DNA from: a virus
Direction: 5' to 3' (one strand)
Length of the DNA stretch: 22,412 nt
Virus record (IMG/VR): IMGVR_UViG_3300013104_000076
Coordinates: 1-22,412 of that record
Positions 12,230 to 21,139 of this stretch are shown in pieces. The translations under genes and the position numbers were made by a program. Each line of letters begins with the position of its first letter. Within the stretch, counting starts at the first letter, position 1. The notes below the pieces were generated by a model that saw only the letters and a program-made list of their open reading frames with translations, ran no database searches and was not told where the DNA came from.

Positions 12230-12520
12230 TTAGCGGGTGATAGGGGCGAGGATGTGGAAGAAATAGCTCATTGGTTCGATGCGGTGACATCCGGGACATT
12301 GGTTGAGGTGGTTGCTTTGGATGCGCTCAACGAACTTGGGGCAGGCTGCGTAAGCTTCGGACCAGCCCGTGCATATGCAATATCCGCGTATGTAATGTGA
12401 TGCGGGTTCGTCTTGGTGAGCATCGCGGTAAGTCGCGTGCTGGGTGTGTTCGCAGGCTTGTTCTTCGAATTCGCCTACGAGTAGTTCGAGGCTGATTTCG
12501 GTTCCTGCTTGGACGGTCAT
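12230..12520 (-). CDS. Cys/His-rich hypothetical protein
   Basis: A 96-aa protein with several candidate metal ligands: EEQACEHTQHATYRDAHQ, RGYCICTGWSEAYAACPKF and NQCPGCHRIEP. This would fit one or two zinc sites, but the spacing does not match a family I know. GGGAG lies upstream of the ATG, which overlaps the stop of the small membrane protein. Confidence 0.6.
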   Translation of the reverse strand: MTVQAGTEISLELLVGEFEEQACEHTQHATYRDAHQDEPASHYIRGYCICTGWSEAYAACPKFVERIQSNHLNQCPGCHRIEPMSYFFHILAPITR

Positions 12521-12651
12521 TGGATGCTCCCGAGTGCTGCGGCGATGGGGAGTGTGCTGAGTGGTAGTACGACGAGGATGAGAACACCTAGTGCGGTTTC
12601 TTTGAGGGATTCGAGTGCGTCACGGTTCCAACGGATCGGTTCACGGCTCAT
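12517..12651 (-). CDS. Small single-pass membrane protein
   Basis: A 44-aa protein: a short charged N-terminus (MSREPIRWNRDALESLKETA) followed by one hydrophobic span at about 21-41 (LGVLILVVLPLSTLPIAAAL). It overlaps both neighbours by ATGA. A tiny early membrane protein could act in exclusion or membrane remodelling, but there is no homology to support this. Confidence 0.6.
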   Translation of the reverse strand: MSREPIRWNRDALESLKETALGVLILVVLPLSTLPIAAALGSIQ

Positions 12652-12812
12652 TGTTGTGCCGCCATCCTGGTTGCTTCCGCGAACGCTTCGGGCTGGGATG
12701 TGTGGTGGCTGATCGTGATGTCATCTGCGTGTCGGACGCTCGCCCACCAGAGGCCCATGTCTTTTACGACGGATGGCTTGTCAGGGTTGGTGCGGAGTGA
12801 GTGGATTTTCAT
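12648..12812 (-). CDS. Small hypothetical protein
   Basis: A 54-aa protein (MKIHSLRTNPDKPSVVKDMG..., then ISHHTSQPEAFAEATRMAAQQ). The beta-strand-then-helix layout with WWASVRHADDITISHHTSQPEAF is seen in small phage proteins of unknown role. The ATG at 12812 has GGAG upstream and overlaps the previous stop (ATGA). Confidence 0.55.
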   Translation of the reverse strand: MKIHSLRTNPDKPSVVKDMGLWWASVRHADDITISHHTSQPEAFAEATRMAAQQ

Positions 12813-13045
12813 TGGCTGTCTCCTGTCTTGCAGACGATGGCGCCGGATAGGTCGATGGCTGGTTTCCGGTAGGGGTTGTCGGCTTTGTTTGGGCGGCTCG
12901 GCAGATCGGCGCATGCGTCCCAGCCCGTCGCGAGCAGTTCGCGTCGGCCGGCGTCAAGCTTGTCTGCCATGCCCATAAGTTGTTGGGCCAGCTTCCGGTT
13001 AGATGCTTTGAGCTGGTCGTTCTCGGCTTGAAGTTCAGCGCTCAT
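12809..13045 (-). CDS. Coiled-coil hypothetical protein
   Basis: A 78-aa protein with an N-terminal leucine-zipper-like helix (MSAELQAENDQLKASNRKLA, continuing to about residue 40), then a proline-rich tail with two cysteines. A strong AAAGGAG site lies before the ATG. Probably oligomeric; the function is unknown. Confidence 0.6.
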   Translation of the reverse strand: MSAELQAENDQLKASNRKLAQQLMGMADKLDAGRRELLATGWDACADLPSRPNKADNPYRKPAIDLSGAIVCKTGDSQ

Positions 13046-13200
13046 TGGTTCTCTCCTTTGCGCCTGGAATCTGCGTCGTCTTCGTACTTGGTTTGTTGTT
13101 GGGCTTGGGTTTCTTCGCGTCCCGCGTAGTACGACCAGTCACGCGGCTCTCGGTACTGGCGGCTCATCAGAGGCCCCACCCGCCGGCTAGGTATGCTCAT
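13042..13200 (-). CDS. Small hypothetical polar protein
   Basis: A 52-aa frame (MSIPSRRVGPLMSRQYREPR..., ending KGENQ), rich in Gln, Arg and Asp, with DWSYYAGREE in the middle. It overlaps both neighbours by ATGA. An internal ATG at 13167 (MSRQYREP) with GGGG upstream is an alternative start. The final codons contain the AAAGGAG ribosome site of the next gene. Confidence 0.5.
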   Translation of the reverse strand: MSIPSRRVGPLMSRQYREPRDWSYYAGREETQAQQQTKYEDDADSRRKGENQ

Positions 13201-13328
13201 TGTTTTTCCGTCCTGTATTCGCTGACGATTTGGGTGATGTTCATGAGGATCGCGACGGGTGTTGATTGGCCGCGCATGAACACGTCTACTTGTTGTCCGA
13301 TGTTTGCCATCGCTTGTTCAGCGGTCAT
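13197..13328 (-). CDS. Small hypothetical protein
   Basis: A 43-aa protein (MTAEQAMANIGQQVDVFMRG..., then PVAILMNITQIVSEYRTEKQ). The pattern of an amphipathic strand and helix is typical of many small early phage proteins. The start at 13328 overlaps the upstream stop (ATGA), as does its own end with the next start. Unknown function. Confidence 0.55.
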   Translation of the reverse strand: MTAEQAMANIGQQVDVFMRGQSTPVAILMNITQIVSEYRTEKQ

Positions 13329-13513
13329 TGTGTGGGCCTGTCGTAGGCGGGGTCGCGGTGTTTGCCGAATCCTGGTGGGACTGAGCCGGTTGTGATGTAG
13401 GTGGCGAACTCGTTGGCGAACCTGTCGAGTTTGAAAACCTCGGAGTGAGTTCCGAATACGTGCCCGGTTTTGAAGTACTCCCGCATGATGGTCGCGTTCG
13501 TGACGATGCTCAT
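13325..13513 (-). CDS. Small hypothetical protein
   Basis: A 62-aa protein (MSIVTNATIMREYFKTGHVF..., ending AYDRPTQ). It may form a small alpha/beta domain; GHVFGTHSEVFKLDRFANEF is its most distinctive part. It overlaps both neighbours by four bases. No family recognised. Confidence 0.6.
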   Translation of the reverse strand: MSIVTNATIMREYFKTGHVFGTHSEVFKLDRFANEFATYITTGSVPPGFGKHRDPAYDRPTQ

Positions 13514-13671
13514 GCTGCGACCGCCGTGACTGTGGTGACCGGGCCGTGTTCAGTGATGCCGACGTTGCCCTTGTTGTGAACACGGGCAGCTGCTTCTTGT
13601 TGGAGGTCAACCAGGATGGACGGGTTGCGGCGGATGTCTGATGTGAAAACGGAGAACGTGTGCTTGCTCAT
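13510..13671 (-). CDS. Small hypothetical protein
   Basis: A 53-aa protein (MSKHTFSVFTSDIRRNPSIL..., ending VTTVTAVAA). AAAAGGAA lies before the ATG, which starts two bases beyond the stop of the HTH gene. It could be a small DNA-interacting protein, but this is not supported by a clear motif. It ends in an ATGA overlap. Confidence 0.55.
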   Translation of the reverse strand: MSKHTFSVFTSDIRRNPSILVDLQQEAAARVHNKGNVGITEHGPVTTVTAVAA

Positions 13672-13672
13672 G

Positions 13673-13897
13673 TCATTTCCTTTTCGGGATTCGGGGTGCT
13701 TTGCGGGGCGGTTCGGGTGGTGCTGGTTGTTTGTGGTACATCGCTTTGATGGTTTGGATGTCTTCGGCTGAGAAGCGGATTTCGGAGCCGATCACGTGAT
13801 GCGGCCAGTTGTCGCGTTTTTTGAGCCGGTAGATCGTGGACCGTGAAACTTTGAGGATCGCGGCGAGTTCTTCGAGGGTGTAGAGCATGTCGGTCAT
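13673..13897 (-). CDS. Excisionase-like helix-turn-helix protein
   Basis: A 74-aa HTH_17/MerR-like protein: MLYTLEELAAILKVSRSTIY is the recognition helix pair, followed by RLKKRDNWPHHVIGSEIRFS as the wing, then a helix and a basic proline-rich tail. This is the typical form of phage excisionases (recombination directionality factors), also used by small regulators. Position in the early operon, not beside the integrase, fits excision on induction. The start overlaps the upstream stop by ATGA; M4 is an alternative. Confidence 0.7.
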   Translation of the reverse strand: MTDMLYTLEELAAILKVSRSTIYRLKKRDNWPHHVIGSEIRFSAEDIQTIKAMYHKQPAPPEPPRKAPRIPKRK

Positions 13898-14382
13898 GCC
13901 GCCCCACGTTGTCGATCCGCGTCGTTGTGGGTGAACAGCCGATTTCGAAGCTCTACGACCGCGGCCTCAGCCTCAGCCACGGTTGAGTAGTAGCCGGCTG
14001 AATGCTGCCTTCCGTGATGAGTTACGGTTGCCCGCCATTTCTGGTCGCGTGGAAACCAGGAGACTCCTAAAACGCCAGACTTGGTGTTGCTATTAGCGGC
14101 GTCACGGTTTTCCAGGTTCTCTTTGTTCGTGACAGGCCGGAGGTGGCTGGGTTTGACACATGCCGGGTTGTGGCAGGTGTGATCTATGTGGAAACCCTCC
14201 GGAATTGGCCCCACCGCCAACTCGTAGGCAACTCGATGGGCGAGGCTTGCTCGATGGGATCCGTCCACCCGGATCATGAACTTGCCATATCCACTCACGT
14301 TTCGGTGGGCGGTCCAAAGCCAGCAGGTGTCAGTCTTGGCAACCTTTGACCAGAACCGTTCCTGAGGGGATTTCCTGCTCAT
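13894..14382 (-). CDS. HNH homing endonuclease with AP2 domain (second copy)
   Basis: A 162-aa protein with the same architecture as the one at 10027-10488: FWSKVAKTDTCWLW, an HNH core (HIDHTCHNPACVKPSHLRPV) and an AP2 domain (SGVLGVSWFPRDQKWRATV, then AGYYSTVAEAEAAVVELRN). It starts at an ATG with GGAG upstream and ends in an ATGA overlap with the excisionase-like gene. Divergence between the two copies suggests separate arrivals or old duplication. It would cut uninfected alleles and spread with the phage. Confidence 0.9.
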   Translation of the reverse strand: MSRKSPQERFWSKVAKTDTCWLWTAHRNVSGYGKFMIRVDGSHRASLAHRVAYELAVGPIPEGFHIDHTCHNPACVKPSHLRPVTNKENLENRDAANSNTKSGVLGVSWFPRDQKWRATVTHHGRQHSAGYYSTVAEAEAAVVELRNRLFTHNDADRQRGAA

Positions 14383-14406: not shown

Positions 14407-14751
14407 CTAAGCAGCTATCGGGAGACGCTGTTGTTGCATCTCCGGGTCTGGTCTCTTGATGGCAATCGGGTCCACGTTGAGGAAGTCCGCGATCTGGTAA
14501 AGGACCTCGTTGGTCATGTGTAGGTCTCCGCTGCATAGTCGCGTCACGTACTGGCGAGAAACTCCACGGGGGGCACGCGCTGTACGAATGTGGGCAGCTA
14601 ACTCCGGCTGTGTGATCGGGCGACGAATGAGGTAACCCTTCGGGGTTTCTTCGGTTCGGAACAGCAGGGCTTTGAGTGTCTGCCCTACTCGCACATCCTC
14701 GGGGTCATAACTTTTGGGGGCCTCCCGAGTACCCCAGGTTACTTCGCTCAT
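14407..14751 (-). CDS. Cro-like HTH regulator, first early gene
   Basis: A 114-aa protein with an XRE-type HTH in the second half, about 46-95 (ITQPELAAHIRTARAPRGVS, then YVTRLCSGDLHMTNEVLYQIADFLNVDP). The start MSEVTWGTR at 14751 follows closely after GATACT repeats and a TTGACA element on the same strand. It is divergent from the immunity repressor, which fits a Cro/early antirepressor role at the shared operators. A longer upstream frame exists but would run through the operators. Confidence 0.75.
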   Translation of the reverse strand: MSEVTWGTREAPKSYDPEDVRVGQTLKALLFRTEETPKGYLIRRPITQPELAAHIRTARAPRGVSRQYVTRLCSGDLHMTNEVLYQIADFLNVDPIAIKRPDPEMQQQRLPIAA

Positions 14752-14754
14752 GTG

Positions 14755-15038
14755 AATATCTTGAAGTATCCGTGAGTATCTTGTCAACCCTGCGCGGAGT
14801 ATCTCAAAGTATCCAGAGGCAGGAAACCGCGCCAATTAAAGGAAGCAGGCCCAAAACTAGAAGGTATATTCGACCCCGATTTGACCGCGAGAAACCAAGA
14901 AACTTCGCCTAAGCTACTCCGGGTACTTGTTGTGGATACCTCGCCTCTTTTGCGAATGTTCTGGGAGTGGAACCGAGTACTTGGATGAGCGAAAACGAGT
15001 ACGTGCGGGTATCCACAATGAGCACATTCGGGTACTAC
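14755..15038. promoter_or_regulatory. Divergent immunity control region with operator repeats
   Basis: Left part: AGTATC copies at 14765, 14775, 14798 and 14808 plus a variant AATATC at 14755, mostly exactly ten bases apart, on either side of a minus-strand TTGACA (14787-14782). Right part: CGRGTACKTG-type copies at 14920, 14974, 14996 and a variant at 15029, and a perfect 10-bp inverted pair TGTGGATACC (14931-14940) / GGTATCCACA (15008-15017). This lies between the repressor and the Cro-like gene and is the likely lysis-lysogeny switch. No clear -10 boxes were seen. Confidence 0.7.
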
Positions 15039-15110
15039 CGAGTGTTGATTACCGTGATTAGTAGGGGGACATTGATTCGTATGAGCATCGTTTTAGAAAC
15101 CGAGGGAGAC

Positions 15111-15626
15111 ATGGAGCAGGACAGGCAGTACGGCGAAGAAGCAATGTTGCGCCGGCTGGGCCAGCTCGCACGTCAGCGCCGCGAGGAACTTGGCCTTGGC
15201 AGGGTTCCTTTTGCGCAGCAGAACGGCATGGGATCAAGTGCGACTATGCGCGATTTTGAGTTCGGGAAGATCAGGCCAACAGCGATCACGTTGCGTCGTA
15301 TCGAGAAGGGTCTTCATTGGAGTCCTGGGGTGATTGACGAGAAGCTTGAAGTTGCTGAGGCGGTCAAGGCTTCGGATGTGTCAATGGAGGATCTTGATTC
15401 GTTCGACTCCGCGCCGAAGGCCGGCTTGGATCGATACACGACTCCTGAGTTGTTGCGTGCTTTGGCCGAGCGTTTGGAGACTTTGCAGGCTGGTTTGGGT
15501 GGCGCTGTTTTGCCGAGGGATCTGGGCACTAAGGATCTGTATGGCATGGCTGCTAGCGGGCATATCCCGGAGCACCTTGAGGCCGAGTACATTGACTCGG
15601 CTGTTGAGGATCCTGACGCGAACTAG
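15111..15626 (+). CDS. Immunity repressor, XRE-type HTH
   Basis: A 171-aa protein. The HTH lies at about 11-75 (LRRLGQLARQRREELGLGR, FAQQNGMGSSATMRDFEFGK, ITLRRIEKGLHWSPG). The C-terminal part is acidic and ends in a helical segment with LLRALAERLETLQAGLG. It is the first plus-strand gene, next to the operators and an ImmA-like peptidase, so it is the prime candidate for the lysogenic repressor. The ATG at 15111 has GAGGGAG upstream; ATGs at 15081 or further upstream are possible but lack a well-spaced ribosome site. Confidence 0.75.
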   Translation: MEQDRQYGEEAMLRRLGQLARQRREELGLGRVPFAQQNGMGSSATMRDFEFGKIRPTAITLRRIEKGLHWSPGVIDEKLEVAEAVKASDVSMEDLDSFDSAPKAGLDRYTTPELLRALAERLETLQAGLGGAVLPRDLGTKDLYGMAASGHIPEHLEAEYIDSAVEDPDAN

Positions 15627-15722
15627 GTCACTTGTGGCTTAAACTGTCCGCCCCAGCCTTTACTCTTAATCCCAGTCGTTGGCACAGTGCTGGCATGGGG
15701 GTTGAGTATTGGGGGTTGCCGC

Positions 15723-16154
15723 GTGGCGATGGTTTATAGGGTTCGGATGCCTGATGGTGTGCCGTCTCGTACTGATGGTGTGGATATTTATGTTGATGAT
15801 CGCCTGGATGATGTTGCGTTGCGGTGTGCGATTGAACATGAAGTCATCCATATTGAGCGCGGGCATTGTACGTTGCAGACTGAGGCTGTTGAGATGTCCG
15901 TCCGGTATGAGACTGCGAAACGGTTGCTTCCTTTGGACATGATTGTGGGGGTGTGCAAGGAGGGCAGGTCGTTGGCTCAGATCGCGCGTGAACTCAGGGT
16001 GACTAAGCAGGTTCTTATGGACCGTGCCGCAACTTTGACTGATGAGCAGTCGAAACTTGCGGGGTGCATGGACTGTCGTATGTGCCCTGTGATCCAGGCT
16101 AAGTACAGCAACCACCCGTCCACGTACCGGGCCCGTCAACTCATCGCTAACTAA
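15723..16154 (+). CDS. ImmA/IrrE-family metallopeptidase
   Basis: A 143-aa protein with the zinc-protease motif HEVIH (H39, E40, H43) and downstream acidic and tyrosine residues (LQTEAVEMSVRYETAKRLLP). In ICEBs1-type systems ImmA cuts the neighbouring repressor to release lysogeny. It follows the repressor at about 100 bases and likely acts on it. GTG at 15723 is chosen because GGGGG is seven bases upstream; an upstream GTG at 15687 would add 12 residues. A CxxC...C cluster (GCMDCRMCPV) near the C-terminus may bind metal. Confidence 0.8.
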   Translation: MAMVYRVRMPDGVPSRTDGVDIYVDDRLDDVALRCAIEHEVIHIERGHCTLQTEAVEMSVRYETAKRLLPLDMIVGVCKEGRSLAQIARELRVTKQVLMDRAATLTDEQSKLAGCMDCRMCPVIQAKYSNHPSTYRARQLIAN

Positions 16155-16165
16155 CCACTCCCGAA

Positions 16166-16215
16166 AAGAATTACCCTGCTCTACCTAGCCTCACATGGTA
16201 GAGCAGGGTATTCTT
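16166..16215 (+). terminator. Strong terminator after the immunity genes
   Basis: AAGAATTACCCTGCTCTACC (16166-16185) pairs with GGTAGAGCAGGGTATTCTT (16197-16215) to give 19 base pairs with one bulged T and an 11-base loop. A T-rich stem foot follows (ATTCTTGTT). It closes the repressor operon. It ends just five bases before the next ATG, so it might act as an attenuator. Confidence 0.8.
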
Positions 16216-16220
16216 GTTAT

Positions 16221-16367
16221 ATGAGCGAACAAACCACCGCGCCAACAGAGCGCGACAAAATGATACGTACCTTGATCACAGACCTTGATGCCGCCCGAGC
16301 AGGCGGGATTGTCTATACCTATGGGCTGATCCAGCAGCGACTCCGCGCCATTCTGGACGCATCATGA
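16221..16367 (+). CDS. Small hypothetical protein, first gene of the accessory array
   Basis: A 48-aa protein (MSEQTTAPTERDKMIRTLIT..., then TYGLIQQRLRAILDAS), mainly helical. The ATG is five bases after the terminator hairpin and has no clear ribosome site; it may be leaderless, with TATTCT (16209-16214) as a -10 seven bases upstream, or may depend on read-through. It overlaps the next gene by ATGA. Confidence 0.55.
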   Translation: MSEQTTAPTERDKMIRTLITDLDAARAGGIVYTYGLIQQRLRAILDAS

Positions 16368-16846
16368 CCGCCACCGTCCCGTCCTTGTTGCAGCCCCTGA
16401 AAGACCGGCTCGCCGCTCAGTTGCCGGATGCCGCCCGGATGGACGCCTACTACTACGGTTTCCAGCGCACGGGGTTCCAGCCCGTGGACGCGATCCTGTC
16501 CGCCGTAGCGGTCGCTGGCAAGGGCTCGCACCACACGGAGTCTTGGGCGGGCACGGACTCAGCATGGTTCTACGGCGACCGGCCCGGACTGCCCGCCGCT
16601 GACGGCGCGGAGGACCTCATCCAGAAGACCGCCGACCTTGCCGCACGGAACATCACCACGGATCAGGCCAAGCTCATCGCAGCCATAGAAGCCGTGGTAG
16701 CGCTGCATGGGCGGGGCGCTGGACACAACCCTGAATGTGATTGCGGGATACCGGCAGGCGCCAATGCAAGGTGCCTCTGCGGTAAAGACTGGCCATGCCC
16801 TACGGTCGCCGCCCTCACCCAGGCGTTGGGTGGTGACACGGCATGA
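16364..16846 (+). CDS. Hypothetical protein with C-terminal cysteine cluster
   Basis: A 160-aa protein. The first 115 residues are helical with ARMDAYYYGFQRTGFQPVDAI, and the C-terminus carries HNPECDCGIPAGANARCLCG and KDWPCPTVAAL (C125, C127, C137, C139, C145), a probable zinc site common in small actinophage proteins. It has four-base overlaps on both sides. The function is unknown. Lysogenic-region location suggests expression from the prophage. Confidence 0.65.
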   Translation: MTATVPSLLQPLKDRLAAQLPDAARMDAYYYGFQRTGFQPVDAILSAVAVAGKGSHHTESWAGTDSAWFYGDRPGLPAADGAEDLIQKTADLAARNITTDQAKLIAAIEAVVALHGRGAGHNPECDCGIPAGANARCLCGKDWPCPTVAALTQALGGDTA

Positions 16847-17232
16847 GCGCGGACTTCGCAGCGACGAAGGCGGTCAAGGCTCGGAAGTCGCACAAGTGTG
16901 AAGAGTGCTTCCGATGGATCACCCCCGGCGAGACGTACCACCGCACGGCCGGAAGCTGGGAAGGCGACTTTTTCACCATCAAGGCATGCGCTCACTGCAA
17001 CGTCTTCCGGAAGCATATCGACGAGGTGGACGACAACTACCACGAGAGCTACTACGGCGGGGCTGGCGAGTGGGTGGCCAACGGTTACTGGTCCGCGATT
17101 GATCTTCCAGGCACAACGTGGATTGAACGCCTCGGCCTGTACCGGATGGCGCGGCAGTTCGCCTCCAAGTGGGGCCAGCGTGACGGGACGCTGGTACCGG
17201 TGCCTGCTGAACCTAAGGCGGTGGCTGCATGA
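16843..17232 (+). CDS. Zinc-binding actinophage protein
   Basis: A 129-aa protein. The N-terminus has KARKSHKCEECFRWITPGE (C19, C22) and FTIKACAHCNVF (C49, C52), a four-cysteine zinc domain, with TYHRTAGSWEGDFF between. This pattern occurs in many actinophages and host genomes. The C-terminal half has GEWVANGYWSAIDLPG and a helical segment. Possibly a nucleic-acid-binding adaptor. Coupled to both neighbours by ATGA. Confidence 0.7.
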   Translation: MSADFAATKAVKARKSHKCEECFRWITPGETYHRTAGSWEGDFFTIKACAHCNVFRKHIDEVDDNYHESYYGGAGEWVANGYWSAIDLPGTTWIERLGLYRMARQFASKWGQRDGTLVPVPAEPKAVAA

Positions 17233-17447
17233 GCCGGGAGGAAGCCGCCGCGAATATCCTCCGTGAGCATGCAACCGACATCCATGACTGTTGCGCTCAG
17301 GACGCCCTTGACGCCGCTGATGGCGTGATGTTCTCGGATGAGCGTGTCGCTTTGCTGACTATCGAGCTAGAACACTTCCGAACCTCAGAAGAACCGACAC
17401 GCGTATTCGCTCACCGGATCATCGCATCATTACGGGAGGGGGCATGA
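17229..17447 (+). CDS. Small helical protein with LREGA tail
   Basis: A 72-aa helical protein (MSREEAAANILREHATDIHD..., ending AHRIIASLREGA). The final codons CGG-GAG-GGG-GCA also form the ribosome site (GGGAGGG) of the next gene, whose ATG overlaps the stop. The same tail ends the gene at 17853-18131. No function recognised. Confidence 0.6.
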   Translation: MSREEAAANILREHATDIHDCCAQDALDAADGVMFSDERVALLTIELEHFRTSEEPTRVFAHRIIASLREGA

Positions 17448-17710
17448 GCGTGCCTGACGAAGCGGTAGAAGCGGCGGCGAAGGCTGCGTCTAAGGATGAC
17501 GCTGAGCCTAACTGGTATCTCGAAACCGAGCGATTCCGTAACACATGGCGCATCCGTATGCGCGCCGCCCTTGAAGCTGCTGCCCCGATCCTCATGTCCG
17601 AAGCGTGGGACGAAGGCGTGAACGATGGCACGTGGAACGCCGAGCATCACTTCCAAATAGCGAATGGCACGCGCCAAGAAATCGAGAACCCTTACAGGAG
17701 TGCAGTATGA
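17444..17710 (+). CDS. Small AWDEG/NPYRS-type protein
   Basis: An 88-aa protein with the shared array module: alanine-rich helix (RAALEAAAPILMSEAWDEGV) and the C-terminal tail ENPYRSAV. The same AWDEG...NPYRS layout occurs in the genes at 18373 and 18522, so these three are paralogs. The tail codons TAC-AGG-AGT contain AGGAG exactly six bases before the next ATG. Function unknown. Confidence 0.65.
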   Translation: MSVPDEAVEAAAKAASKDDAEPNWYLETERFRNTWRIRMRAALEAAAPILMSEAWDEGVNDGTWNAEHHFQIANGTRQEIENPYRSAV

Positions 17711-17856
17711 GCGCCCACCCGATCTACTTTGAGCAGATGAGCGATGGTGGCAAGTGGCCTGCGTGTGCGTGCGGCGAAGTGAAACTACTGACCGATTCCC
17801 GCCCTGACGAACGATGGATAGCCGACCACCTCGCATGGAAGACGGCGACAGCATGA
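17707..17856 (+). CDS. Small hypothetical protein
   Basis: A 49-aa protein (MSAHPIYFEQMSDGGKWPAC..., then DERWIADHLAWKTATA) with a C-A-C-G pair. The pattern of a short zinc-knuckle-like strand followed by W-I-x-D-H-L-x-W is common in actinophage small proteins. It overlaps both neighbours by ATGA. Unknown function. Confidence 0.6.
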   Translation: MSAHPIYFEQMSDGGKWPACACGEVKLLTDSRPDERWIADHLAWKTATA

Positions 17857-18131
17857 GCGCACGTATCGAGCTGACAGCGATTGCACGGCGCGTCATCCTA
17901 AGCCCGCCAGATAAGGGCTTCATGACAGAGGCCATTGCGGATGCGATCTTGGCGGCAGGCTATGTCAAGGTAAGTGAGGCTGGCATAGAACGGGCGGCGA
18001 AGGCTACCTATGCGGAGGGTGCGTTCTGCGGGACTTGCGAGTTCGAAGGCTGGGACTCGTGCGCTGACTGCCGACGCTGCAACATGGACTACGCCCGTGC
18101 TGTTGTTGCGGCGTTGCGGGAGGGGGCATGA
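17853..18131 (+). CDS. Small protein with cysteine cluster and LREGA tail
   Basis: A 92-aa protein. The middle is helical (ARIELTAIARRVILSPPDKG), and there are six cysteines in AFCGTCEFEGWDSCADCRRC plus a following NMDYARAVVAALREGA. The tail and its embedded GGGAGGGGG ribosome site match those of the 17229-17447 gene. Probably zinc-binding. Coupled on both sides. Confidence 0.6.
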   Translation: MSARIELTAIARRVILSPPDKGFMTEAIADAILAAGYVKVSEAGIERAAKATYAEGAFCGTCEFEGWDSCADCRRCNMDYARAVVAALREGA

Positions 18132-18376
18132 GCCGTGAACTTGGGCCGCAGGAGGATTGCGTGCAGTGCGGTGAGTCCAAAGCCGCCATAAAGGAATCAC
18201 AACGTAGACGGGATCCTATCTATTGCGGCGCGGTGGACTACGACGGCGAGTGCATCTGGGAAGCTGACCGGCACCGGTTTATATGGACAACAAGAGACAT
18301 CGCTGAGGAAGTGGCCGAGGCTGAGTACTGGGAACGGGCCGGGCAAGCACTCGACCGCATGGAGGTAGAAGCATGA
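18128..18376 (+). CDS. Small hypothetical protein with CxxC
   Basis: An 82-aa acidic protein (MSRELGPQEDCVQCGESKAA..., then YDGECIWEADRHRFI). C11-x2-C14 plus C33 and C42 could bind a metal. The C-terminus is a charged helix (AEEVAEAEYWERAGQALDRM). It overlaps both neighbours by ATGA. No family recognised. Confidence 0.6.
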   Translation: MSRELGPQEDCVQCGESKAAIKESQRRRDPIYCGAVDYDGECIWEADRHRFIWTTRDIAEEVAEAEYWERAGQALDRMEVEA

Positions 18377-18525
18377 GCGTGTCTGACGAAGCGGTAGAAG
18401 CCCTTGCCGCTGCTGCCCCGTTCATCGCCGCGCAAGCCTGGGACGAAGGGTGGGACGCTATGGCGGACTTTGGCCACCGGCAAGCAGGCCGATACCCCAC
18501 CAACCCCTACAGGAGTGAAGGATGA
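18373..18525 (+). CDS. Small AWDEG/NPYRS-type protein
   Basis: A 50-aa protein beginning MSVSDEAVEALAAAAPFIAA, followed by QAWDEGWDAMADFG and the tail NPYRSEG. It looks like a shortened copy of the 17444 gene: the start (MSV-x-DEAVEA) and the AWDEG and NPYRS parts match, while the middle is lost. AGGAG in the tail codons lies six bases before the next ATG. Confidence 0.65.
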   Translation: MSVSDEAVEALAAAAPFIAAQAWDEGWDAMADFGHRQAGRYPTNPYRSEG

Positions 18526-18767
18526 TCAGCAAGGAAGCATCGGAAGCGGCACACAACACGTACCGGGAAGTCCTCACTGACCTGCGTCTCACTGAGGGCG
18601 CCGGGTTCAAGGTCGCCTCTCAGGTTAGGCGGGCATTGGACGCCGCCATTGAAGCCGCTGCACCCCACCTAATGGCCCAAGCATGGGACGAAGGAAATAT
18701 TGCGGGGATATTCGACCTGCCCAGCGAAGACCACGCAACCCCCAACCCCTACAGGAGCGGCACGTGA
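18522..18767 (+). CDS. Small AWDEG/NPYRS-type protein
   Basis: An 81-aa protein, third paralog in the array: MISKEASEAAHNTYREVLTD, then the shared AAIEAAAPHLMAQAWDEGN and tail PNPYRSGT. The last 15 bases (AGGAGCGGCACGTGA, 18753-18767) are identical to those ending the gene at 19029-19154. The embedded AGGAG serves the next GTG start. Unknown function. Confidence 0.65.
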   Translation: MISKEASEAAHNTYREVLTDLRLTEGAGFKVASQVRRALDAAIEAAAPHLMAQAWDEGNIAGIFDLPSEDHATPNPYRSGT

Positions 18768-18853
18768 CTGCCTTGGAATGGGCTTCTGGCAAGCTCATGG
18801 AAATCCTGGTCCGCGGTGTTTGCGGTTGCGCGAAGTGTAGGGGTAAAGGGTGA
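18764..18853 (+). CDS. Very small cysteine-rich peptide
   Basis: A 29-aa frame starting with GTG (MTALEWASGKLMEILVRGVC, then GCAKCRGKG). Three cysteines in the last ten residues suggest a metal knuckle. It overlaps the gene before and the gene after by exactly four bases (GTGA each time), and the AGGAG six bases upstream is in the previous tail. Called on these overlaps. Confidence 0.5.
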   Translation: MTALEWASGKLMEILVRGVCGCAKCRGKG

Positions 18854-19032
18854 GCGCGTTTGCCGTGTTGTGGTGGGTGGTTGCTGCGTATCAGGTGGTG
18901 GAGGTTGCGCGTGCTGTTCGTGCGCTAATCCTAACTCCTGGAACAAGGGCGACGTTCGGTTGGCCGTTCCTCATCCTCGCCGCAGCAAACACCAGCCTCG
19001 GAACCCTCTACCTCACAGGAGCAATACGATGA
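18850..19032 (+). CDS. Small membrane protein with two hydrophobic spans
   Basis: A 60-aa protein starting with GTG. Hydrophobic spans are at about 2-20 (SAFAVLWWVVAAYQVVEVA) and about 37-56 (FGWPFLILAAANTSLGTLYL), with a basic Arg between them, so it likely makes a hairpin in the membrane. Followed directly by a second small membrane protein. Lysogenically placed small membrane proteins often act in superinfection exclusion, but this is only inference. Confidence 0.6.
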   Translation: MSAFAVLWWVVAAYQVVEVARAVRALILTPGTRATFGWPFLILAAANTSLGTLYLTGAIR

Positions 19033-19154
19033 CCCTACTGGCGCTGTTCATAGTCTTGTTGGTCTGGGGCCATGTGGAGCAGAAAATCATCCGGCACGAC
19101 GCTGACCAGATGATGCGACTCATCCAAGACTCACACGATAGGAGCGGCACGTGA
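19029..19154 (+). CDS. Small single-pass membrane protein
   Basis: A 41-aa protein: one N-terminal hydrophobic span (MTLLALFIVLLVWGHV) and a charged C-terminal helix ending DSHDRSGT. AGGAG lies seven bases before the ATG inside the end of the previous gene, and its own tail carries the AGGAG for the next gene. It pairs with the preceding membrane protein, so the two could form one membrane complex. Confidence 0.6.
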   Translation: MTLLALFIVLLVWGHVEQKIIRHDADQMMRLIQDSHDRSGT

Positions 19155-19387
19155 ACATCACCGAGTTTCTGGAAGCCAGGATCGCAGAGGACGAGGAACG
19201 GGCCCGCGACGTTCAGGAGTACGGGGACACTGGTGGCGTGTTTAGCCCCGCCCGTGTCCTTGTCGAGTGCGCGGCGAAACGGGAAGTGCTCAAGTGGGTC
19301 ACCGACTTCACGGTGCTTGAAGCACTCGCCGCCGTCTACCGCGATCATCCAGACCACGATCCGAACTGGGCGCTTGCTGATTCGTAG
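19151..19387 (+). CDS. DUF6221-like protein
   Basis: A 78-aa protein starting with GTG (MNITEFLEARIAEDEERARD). The pattern E-F-L-x-A-R-x-x-E-D-E...DPARVL-like (SPARVLVECAAKREVLKWV) and the C-terminal AAVYRDHPDHDPNWALADS fits the actinobacterial DUF6221 family, common in phages and chromosomes and of unknown function. It is the last gene of the four-base-overlap array. Confidence 0.75.
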   Translation: MNITEFLEARIAEDEERARDVQEYGDTGGVFSPARVLVECAAKREVLKWVTDFTVLEALAAVYRDHPDHDPNWALADS

Positions 19388-19437
19388 CGTTACCAGCACC
19401 AATACGCAATGAGGGCCCAAGAAAGAGGCAAGCAAGC

Positions 19438-19686
19438 ATGCAAGATGATGTTGTCGGGTATAGCGAGTTCGGGCAAACAGCGCATAAGAAGATGTGGGAG
19501 CAAGCCGATGCTTGGGAAAAAGGACCCAAGCCTGACGTTGATGAGCTAATGAGGGTAGTGAAGAAGGTGGCGATCATCGCGGAAGAGAATGAGATTGCCG
19601 GCGATCCTGGCAAATCGCGGATGGCCTACAGCCTCAAGCTGGCGCTACTCCCCGTGATCCACCTGACTAGTAACAAGCGCGACTAG
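19438..19686 (+). CDS. Hypothetical helical protein
   Basis: An 82-aa protein (MQDDVVGYSEFGQTAHKKMW..., then LMRVVKKVAIIAEENEIAGD). It is mostly helical and charged. It stands apart from the array by 50 bases and has a plain purine-rich ribosome site (AAGAGG). A strong terminator follows within seven bases. No family recognised. Confidence 0.6.
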   Translation: MQDDVVGYSEFGQTAHKKMWEQADAWEKGPKPDVDELMRVVKKVAIIAEENEIAGDPGKSRMAYSLKLALLPVIHLTSNKRD

Positions 19687-19692
19687 GGATAA

Positions 19693-19730
19693 GCAAGGGC
19701 CCTCGCTTCGGTGGGGGCCCTTGCGTTTGT
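19693..19730 (+). terminator. Intrinsic terminator of the accessory array
   Basis: GCAAGGGCCC (19693-19702) pairs with GGGCCCTTGC (19715-19724), a perfect 10-bp stem with a 12-base loop, followed by GTTTGT. It separates the accessory array from the attachment region. Confidence 0.85.
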
Positions 19731-19990: not shown

Positions 19991-21139
19991 ATGGCAAGCA
20001 TCCACAAACGCGGTCCCAAGAAGGACGGCACCTACTCATACCGGCTAATGTGGCGGGATCCAGACTACGGCCCGCGGCACGAAACGTTCCAGGATGAGGC
20101 GGATGCGAACCTGTGGAAGCGGCTGCTGGATGCTAACGGTCAGTCGCTCAGTATTGCTACGTCACTGCATAAAGAGGCTGAGCAGGCGGGTCCCACGATG
20201 CGGGAATTGTTTGAGGAACACTTCAAGCAGTTAACGGACGTTGGACCGTACCAGCTCAAACGGTACAGCCGCGACCTCGATAACCATTTCACCAGCCTGC
20301 TATCCCGTAAGGTTGCCGGGATCACCCGCCGTGACATCACCGCCTGGATTAACGAGATGAAAGCCAAGCCGGGTAGGTATGGTGCGCCGATGTCAGCTAA
20401 GACAATCGCCAACCAGCACGGCCTACTCTCCGCGGCGATGAACACAGCCCTTGTGTACGGTTACCGGACGGACAACCCATGCAAAGGTGTGAAGCTCCCC
20501 AAGTCCACGCACACCGAGGAACCCATCCGGTTCATCACCCGTGATGAGTGGGACGCAATCCTTGGCAACATGGATCCGCATTTCCTGCCGTTCTTCCAAT
20601 TCCTTGTAGGGTCCGGGCTTAGGTTCGGTGAAGCAACGGCACTCAAGGCCGGGGACTTTGAGCTTGACGCTAAGGCTCCCTCAGTTAAGGTCACTAAGGC
20701 ATGGAAGCAGGATGACGTTGGCGGGTACTACGTGGGCGCCCCTAAGACCAAGAAGTCCAGGCGCACAGTATCCCTCGCCCCATCCACTGTGACAGCCATA
20801 CGTAAGGCTGTAGAGCGCGCGGGGGAGGGATACGTGTTCACCCTCAAGGAGGGCGGCGTTATGCGCTCTGGTTCAACGTTCAACCGGGCATGGCAGCCGG
20901 CGCTACTCAAGACGGGTTACACGCCTAGCACTAAGGCGCAACAGGGGAACATGCCCCGCATCCACGACATACGCCATACGCATGCTTCGTGGATGATCTT
21001 CGCTGGCATGGAGATATTCCAACTGTCACGCAGGCTAGGCCACGAAAGCATTACCACAACGATGGACCGGTATTCGGGACTCCTGCCCGATGCTCAGTTC
21101 GCCGCCATCGACATCGCAACCAAAGCCCTAGAGGGTTAG
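19991..21139 (+). CDS. int: Tyrosine integrase (site-specific recombinase)
   Basis: A 382-aa phage integrase. N-terminal arm-binding domain about 1-60 (MASIHKRGPKKDGTYSYRLM), core-binding SAM-like domain about 68-160, and catalytic domain about 178-370 with GSGLRFGEATAL (R211), K252-254 region, HDIRHTHASW (H325, R328), GHESITTTMDRYSG (H351, nucleophile Y361). It would recombine attP with ssrA attB. AGGAG is close before the ATG. It is separated from attP by a terminator and two GTTGAC repeats. Length and motifs are normal, so it is likely active. Confidence 0.95.
   Translation: MASIHKRGPKKDGTYSYRLMWRDPDYGPRHETFQDEADANLWKRLLDANGQSLSIATSLHKEAEQAGPTMRELFEEHFKQLTDVGPYQLKRYSRDLDNHFTSLLSRKVAGITRRDITAWINEMKAKPGRYGAPMSAKTIANQHGLLSAAMNTALVYGYRTDNPCKGVKLPKSTHTEEPIRFITRDEWDAILGNMDPHFLPFFQFLVGSGLRFGEATALKAGDFELDAKAPSVKVTKAWKQDDVGGYYVGAPKTKKSRRTVSLAPSTVTAIRKAVERAGEGYVFTLKEGGVMRSGSTFNRAWQPALLKTGYTPSTKAQQGNMPRIHDIRHTHASWMIFAGMEIFQLSRRLGHESITTTMDRYSGLLPDAQFAAIDIATKALEG

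Follow-up and report, generated by a model that had tools for sequence, protein, structure and literature searches.

A variable locus of minigenes in four-base overlap between immA and the integrase gene of an Arthrobacter-type temperate phage

The minigene block and its boundaries

A chain of very small genes lies between the immA and integrase genes of a temperate, Arthrobacter-type phage represented by IMGVR_UViG_3300013104_000076, a 22,412-base IMG/VR virus contig that was analysed over its whole length and is called the window below. The label is used because the DNA and protein matches of the window are to Arthrobacter phages; the host is presumably of the same type. Fourteen open reading frames (ORFs; g1 to g14) occupy positions 16221-19387 of the plus strand, and all 13 junctions between them are overlaps of exactly four bases (10 ATGA, three GTGA). 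The sequence-only reading that described this block, as fourteen genes with thirteen consecutive overlaps and with five members under 60 codons, is correct at every coordinate (the five short products measure 48, 49, 50, 29 and 41 amino acids). The 14 ORFs are real genes, and together they form a variable minigene locus and not a single undescribed system.

An ImmA scan revealed four other phages with the same locus, namely L138, G005, G003 and L141 (G005 is also labelled L139; G003 is L142, with a second copy, L140). Bacterial genomes scanned with immA and the integrase yielded no relative.

The block is framed on both sides. A strong hairpin or inverted repeat separates immA from g1 (16166-16215, plus strand; -33 kcal/mol, z -6.3). 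It is of one sequence type in the window, L138 and G005, and another inverted repeat takes its place in G003 and L141. The two unrelated kinds, CTCTACC..GGTAGAG and CTACTT-N7-AAGTAG, lie at 16166-16215 in the window, at 7465-7504 in L142 and at 7463-7501 in L141. A role of the hairpin as repressor operator is not supported, since it is near-identical in the window, L138 and G005, whereas the interval between repressor and cro differs by eye. The hexamer TATTCT (16209-16214, plus strand), six bases 5' of the g1 ATG, is the proposed -10 box. TANNCT occurs at the corresponding place in all five phages, even though the adjacent repeat changes type, and in four of the five an ATG without an evident Shine-Dalgarno sequence (SD) follows it by 6 to 9 bases; L141 instead has a leader with an SD. 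The g1 start thus appears to be leaderless.

On the right, the end of g14 and the bases that follow it (19376-19418, plus strand) constitute a boundary, much of which remains in G005 and L138 though g14 itself is gone. A further gene, g15 (82 amino acids; 19438-19686, plus strand; recognized by its coding score), overlaps nothing and stands between the chain and a terminator-like hairpin with a 14-pair stem (19693-19724, plus strand), so that it falls within the same terminator-bounded unit. This hairpin, which closes the unit, is shared with G005 and G003.

Members of the block

All members are encoded on the plus strand. The first, g1 (48 amino acids; 16221-16367), scores best of the six frames and has its start in common with L138 and G005. 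A homologue (53%) resides in the lytic early operon of L141 (L141 387-545, minus strand), and g1-type genes are therefore present on both sides of the switch. Its neighbour g2 (160 amino acids, LLQPLKDRL...LTQALGGDTA; 16364-16846) matches phrog_6530 (E=8e-17) and has versions in G005, G003, L138, L087 and MargaretKali. Positions 16656-16850, in g2, are 98.8% identical at the DNA level, in two pieces, to MargaretKali gp43, and the identity stops at the g2/g3 junction; this stretch probably records an exchange with another phage type. A DNA search of annotated phages with the whole block returned only this short g2 piece, in MargaretKali.

Several other members carry cysteine motifs or are rich in cysteine. 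The CxxC...CxxC protein g3 (129 amino acids; 16843-17232; phrog_7314, E=5e-36) has homologues in other phages of the Arthrobacter type (43-76% identity), with a ratio of nonsynonymous to synonymous substitution (dN/dS) well below 1. The CxC protein g6 (49 amino acids; 17707-17856) rests on its coding score; g6-like small proteins follow a WDEG gene in L087 and L141, as judged by eye only. A CxxC protein, g8 (82 amino acids; 18128-18376), has a weak match to phrog_8751 and resembles gp45 of Microbacterium phage Big4. The Cys-rich g11 (29 amino acids; 18764-18853) is absent in L141.

Three genes, g5 (88 amino acids, EAVEAA...WDEG...NPYR; 17444-17710), g9 (50 amino acids; 18373-18525) and g10 (81 amino acids; 18522-18767; 60% identical to an L115 protein), encode WDEG...NPYR family proteins. 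Their kinship had been recognized from the sequence alone, although the count of three was too low: g4 (72 amino acids, ending in SLREGA; 17229-17447) and the Cys-rich g7 (92 amino acids, ending in AALREGA; 17853-18131) are also kin, giving five in total. The alignment relates g4 to g7, with which it also shares a DNA end. For its part, g7 is 64% identical to MargaretKali gp44 and has versions in G005, G003 and L138. In MargaretKali, g2-like and g7-like genes are present in the lytic operon.

Near the end of the chain, the hydrophobic g12 (60 amino acids; 18850-19032) is 63% identical in L141, and g13 (41 amino acids; 19029-19154) has one membrane-like segment. Of the pair of adjacent mini membrane proteins proposed earlier, g13 is clearly membrane-like (hydropathy 1.81) but g12 is borderline (1.58). 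The last gene, g14 (78 amino acids; 19151-19387), is a DUF6221 protein (PF19730, 50.2 bits against a cut-off of 27.6) with a homologue at the corresponding place in G003. Scans of viral contigs with g2 and with a g8/g12/g13 concatenate found no relative; searches of solved structures gave nothing significant, and Rfam no match.

Coding evidence and rarity of the chain

Codon usage trained on the larger genes of the phage was compared in all six frames, and the annotated frame scores best in 14 of the 14 genes; the scores are weak for g11 and g12, that of g11 being the weakest. At 12 of the 13 junctions the last bases of the upstream gene include an SD that pairs well with the 16S end. Its mean energy is -8.6, against a mean of -5.0 in synonymous recodings, none of which (0/500) is as strong. 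The block thus has the sequence layout expected of a translationally coupled operon, with 13 of 13 stop/start overlaps and 12 of 13 SDs inside the upstream gene. In every comparable member dN is lower than dS (20 of 20 homologue comparisons), strongly so for g3 and g7 and weakly for g2.

When the whole window was shuffled 200 times with dinucleotides preserved, comparable chains reached eight genes at most, and most often four. Among four annotated Arthrobacter phages, 66 of 152 same-strand neighbours (43%) overlap by four bases, with at most five overlaps in succession; at that rate, 13 in a row have a probability of 0.43^13 = 2e-5. A mechanical count in 1.36 Mb of sequence, mostly from actinophage loci and biased towards those with the WDEG motif, finds chains of 16 (L030), 14 (L010), 13 (L044) and 13 (L105), in which the first ORF can be spurious. 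Since chains of 13-16 occur in four other phage loci, this one is extreme but not unique: it is an extreme case within a common actinophage style.

The WDEG...NPYR family

The small-protein module WDEG...NPYR is widespread. A DNA pattern for it has matches in 111 IMG/VR stretches, representing over 100 phage loci; as this sample was selected by the motif, it is uninformative on the total abundance of the family. Of the in-frame matches, 84/114 end in a four-base overlap. The genes joined to them in this way encode 70 proteins in 67 clusters, that is, mostly unrelated ones, within the limited sensitivity of clustering for short proteins. The N-terminal parts of the family differ widely, so that WDEG...NPYR behaves as a module at the C-terminus. 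The closest subfamily opens with an EAVEAA segment, which in the alignment links the family to g4 and g7.

NPYRS is encoded as AAC CCY TAC AGG AGY, which includes the SD as AGGAG, and the codons of REGA include GGGAGG. These recurrent C-termini are thus partly explained by the SD that their codons carry. The idea that NPYRS is an RNA signal alone was rejected, its R being coded by 90 CGN versus 24 AGR codons; because CGN is used as well as AGR, the motif is kept at the protein level. Pfam has no match for the module, no paper on the WDEG/NPYR motif surfaced in the literature, and a WDEG query against annotated phages found no match, so that the family is described here from IMG/VR only.

The same locus in related phages

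Comparison of gene order in the related phages agrees with the placement first described: the minigenes are kept at one place, between the repressor/ImmA pair and the integrase. The order is immA, inverted repeat, TANNCT, minigenes and then, where the sequence allows, a conserved right edge and the integrase gene. The immA side is covered in the window, L138, G005, G003 and L141, and the integrase on the right in all of these except L141. Conserved flanks with differing content at one place are what defines a variable accessory locus. Mechanical gene calls give a range of about 5 to 14 genes, and most of the members are not the same even between phages with 95% integrase identity. A common order is nonetheless visible in the window, L138, G005 and G003: g2, a g7-type gene, an EAVEAA/WDEG-type gene, and DUF6221 or its 3' scar.

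G005 is the closest relative; its integrase is 95% identical to that of the window. Its block has seven genes: a gene with a g1-like start, a g2-type and a g7-type gene, three unrelated minigenes and one WDEG gene. Only the g1 start, the g2-type and g7-type genes and one WDEG gene are shared with the window. Because content differs at this degree of integrase identity, turnover of the block is fast relative to its flanks. The claim of one system in fixed stoichiometry is not supported here, since G005 does with seven genes, not 14, and without most members. L138 has five genes, the last being a family member without WDEG and with a TTG start. The G003 block consists of a differing first gene, a 103-amino-acid gene, a g2-type gene, a 58-amino-acid gene and a g7-type gene, followed by a Cys-rich 44-amino-acid gene, two WDEG genes, another ORF and a DUF6221 gene. 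That first gene after immA (about 7510-7790 of L142) has a signal-peptide-like start and Cys residues, making its product a candidate secreted protein. In L141 a 65-amino-acid gene, a WDEG gene, a g12-type gene and three others are found; to judge from its IMG number, this phage (IMGVR_UViG_2643221899_000002) may be a prophage in a cultured isolate.

The joints between genes can be compared directly. What follows the same g2 end (LTQALGGDTA plus ATGA) varies: g3 in the window, a g7-type gene in both G005 and L138, and the 58-amino-acid gene in G003. In L141 no gene separates the WDEG gene from the g12 homologue to which it is joined; in the window, g11 stands there. Between the window and G005 or L138, identity is 100% over 41-42 bases at the g2 end and over 39 bases at the g7 end. 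Islands of shared DNA lie at gene boundaries above random placement (4/6, p=0.03; 6/9, p=0.01), and conserved residues are more often encoded by identical codons in the last 13 codons than elsewhere, both for g2 (45/48 vs 122/180, p=2e-4) and for g7 (50/54 vs 96/165, p=8e-7); these p values come from few relatives and one shared query and are not independent. Within the window, ends are common to g4 and g7, and to g5, g9 and g10. Recombination between such copies could lengthen or shorten the chain.

Genomic setting

On the minus strand, the window holds a lytic early operon with genes for a DNA polymerase exonuclease subunit, a DnaB-like helicase, a replication initiation protein and a single-stranded DNA-binding protein, together with RecE-like exonuclease and HNH genes. 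At 12230-13907 (minus strand) nine ORFs of this operon form a further chain of four-base overlaps, with a WD...NPYR gene at 12809-13045. The plus strand carries, in order, a repressor-like gene, the ImmA-type protease gene, the minigene block and the tyrosine integrase gene. The helix-turn-helix repressor-like gene (14967-15626, plus strand) is assigned from its position opposite a cro-like gene (14407-14835, minus strand) and a weak phrog_6288 match; it is syntenic in the four relatives, at 41-62% identity. The ImmA-type metallo-protease gene (15687-16154, plus strand; phrog_87 metallo-protease, E=6e-10), left neighbour of the locus, is 67-86% identical in L138, G005, G003 and L141. The integrase gene (phrog_1, E=3e-63) occupies 19991-21139 (plus strand), and an endolysin-like fragment lies at the right end of the window.

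An apparently non-coding stretch at 1554-1831 is possibly a packaging-site region. Part of it, 1674-1831, has a counterpart (77% identity) in DevitoJr, Synepsis and similar Arthrobacter phages, about 330-480 bases from their left ends. Positions 1668-1707 match Elesar at 100% over 40 bases, and adjoining pieces are 94-99% identical to G005.

Interpretation

The explanation that we favour, with moderate confidence, is a variable accessory-gene locus, probably read as one coupled transcript, whose cassettes are exchanged at gene ends. Its left boundary would consist of immA, the inverted repeat and the promoter-like hexamer, its right boundary of the g14 end, the terminator and the integrase gene. 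A single transcript would start just after TATTCT and end at 19693-19724, and ribosomes finishing one gene would restart at the next ATGA or GTGA. As each gene would carry the start signal of its successor, genes could be gained, lost or swapped without wrecking translation, the exchange proceeding by recombination between similar gene ends. The present chain may represent an expansion, by insertions and duplicates, of a shorter order (g2, g7-type, WDEG-type, DUF6221).

Several points weigh against this explanation. The promoter candidate is only six bases long and has no clear -35, and a sigma-70 scan did not pick up TATTCT. The repeat upstream of the block could act as terminator, as operator or in both roles. 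There is no SD at the g1-to-g2 junction, and the selection test covers all of the 14 genes but g4, g6, g8, g9, g11 and g13, most of which have no close relative. Besides the interdependence of the gene-end comparisons, conservation of the ends could partly reflect selection on translation signals and not recombination.

The weakest step concerns function. Mixed prophage-side cargo that modifies the host, some members possibly excluding other phages, is a tentative proposal about which we are more doubtful than confident. It is plausible because the block lies on the strand of repressor and integrase, where other phages hold exclusion genes; cargo drawn from a lytic pool is also possible, several members having relatives in lytic operons. 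Anti-defence or exclusion is possible for single members. A bolder generalization, which we think rather unlikely as a whole, would make the ATGA/GTGA overlap with its upstream SD the standard joint of an actinophage gene-cassette array in which any gene may follow any other. The NPYRS-, AALREGA- and QALGGDTA-type ends would then serve as recombination handles as well as start signals, and the immA-side locus would be dedicated to collecting cassettes.

Relatives of g1, g2, g3, g7 and the WDEG genes in the lytic early operons of other phages, and the nine-gene chain with its WD..NPYR gene in the lytic operon of the window, would suit another explanation, in which the block is an overflow from the lytic early genes: minigenes for host takeover that crossed the switch and are expressed on infection, not in the prophage. 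This is rather unlikely, since the block is transcribed against the direction of the lytic operon, from the strand that encodes repressor, immA and integrase, has its own candidate promoter and terminator, and recurs at the same place in relatives.

One coherent exclusion or anti-defence system, its parts held in a fixed ratio by translational coupling, seems improbable. The position beside immA and integrase, the long unbroken chain and the adjoining clear and borderline mini membrane proteins speak for it, and prophage defence systems that pair a membrane with a cytoplasmic protein are known (PMC6426596, PMC6426606). However, the closest relative is without most members, and homologues of g1, g2, g3 and g7 occur singly or beside other genes in lytic operons, among them those of L141 and MargaretKali. 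PADLOC defence families have no match among ten block proteins, and a Pfam scan of the block proteins other than g11 and g15 found no match indicating exclusion and no DUF4747.

That the ORFs arose by chance or are artefacts of annotation, as the tiny size of some (29-50 codons) and the weak coding scores of g11 and g12 might suggest, is already disfavoured to the point of being scarcely credible by codon usage, embedded SDs, chain length relative to shuffles, and dN<dS in relatives.

Actinophage genomes contain many tiny genes of unassigned function in mosaic order, and how swaps spare operons is rarely visible. Here, five related phages let insertions, losses and joints be read base by base. 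The locus yields a testable rule, that each gene carries the start signal of its successor. It is also a defined cargo site of interest for phage exclusion, and it flags the WDEG...NPYR module.

Comparison with known systems

We know of no long chain of four-base overlaps in the lysogeny modules of lactococcal phages. In these phages, exclusion genes are known among the accessory genes that separate the integrase from the repressor (PMC7693887). Sie2009 and similar genes resemble the block in place, small size and variation between relatives; the described examples comprise few genes, against 14 here, and no sequence match was found. As for the Sie/Ltp-type trait of a small membrane product in the lysogeny module, g13 has its one membrane-like segment and g12 is borderline, with no family match.

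Among actinophages, the RexAB-like pairs Sbash 30/31 and CarolAnn 43/44 (PMC6426596, PMC6426606) are, like the block, near the repressor and variable between relatives. They are expressed in lysogens, whereas the block is known from sequence. They are also pairs and not a chain of 14, and combine DUF4747 with a polytopic membrane protein, whereas the membrane-like products here have 60 and 41 amino acids.

A moron is an extra gene with its own promoter and terminator (PMC3029335). The block likewise holds accessory genes in a unit with a candidate promoter and terminator: hairpins flank it on both sides, and there is the TANNCT hexamer. It differs in having many genes per unit, and where morons are present or absent between relatives, this locus is occupied in all five phages and only single members come and go.

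Termination-reinitiation at ATGA involves the same overlap with an SD inside the upstream gene, and 13 of 14 tested pairs with such overlaps showed coupling in other prokaryotes (PMC6728339). Here 13 junctions follow in a row, at which coupling would be expected.

The closest precedent for the exchange of genes is found in mycobacteriophages Island3 and Brujita, for which recombination was inferred between shared gene ends of ~50 bp (PMC3029335). As here, a gene is inserted or lost between two repeats derived from the shared ends of its neighbours. That case is one event, whereas the present one comprises a whole locus, with several recurrent end types and standard ATGA/GTGA joints.

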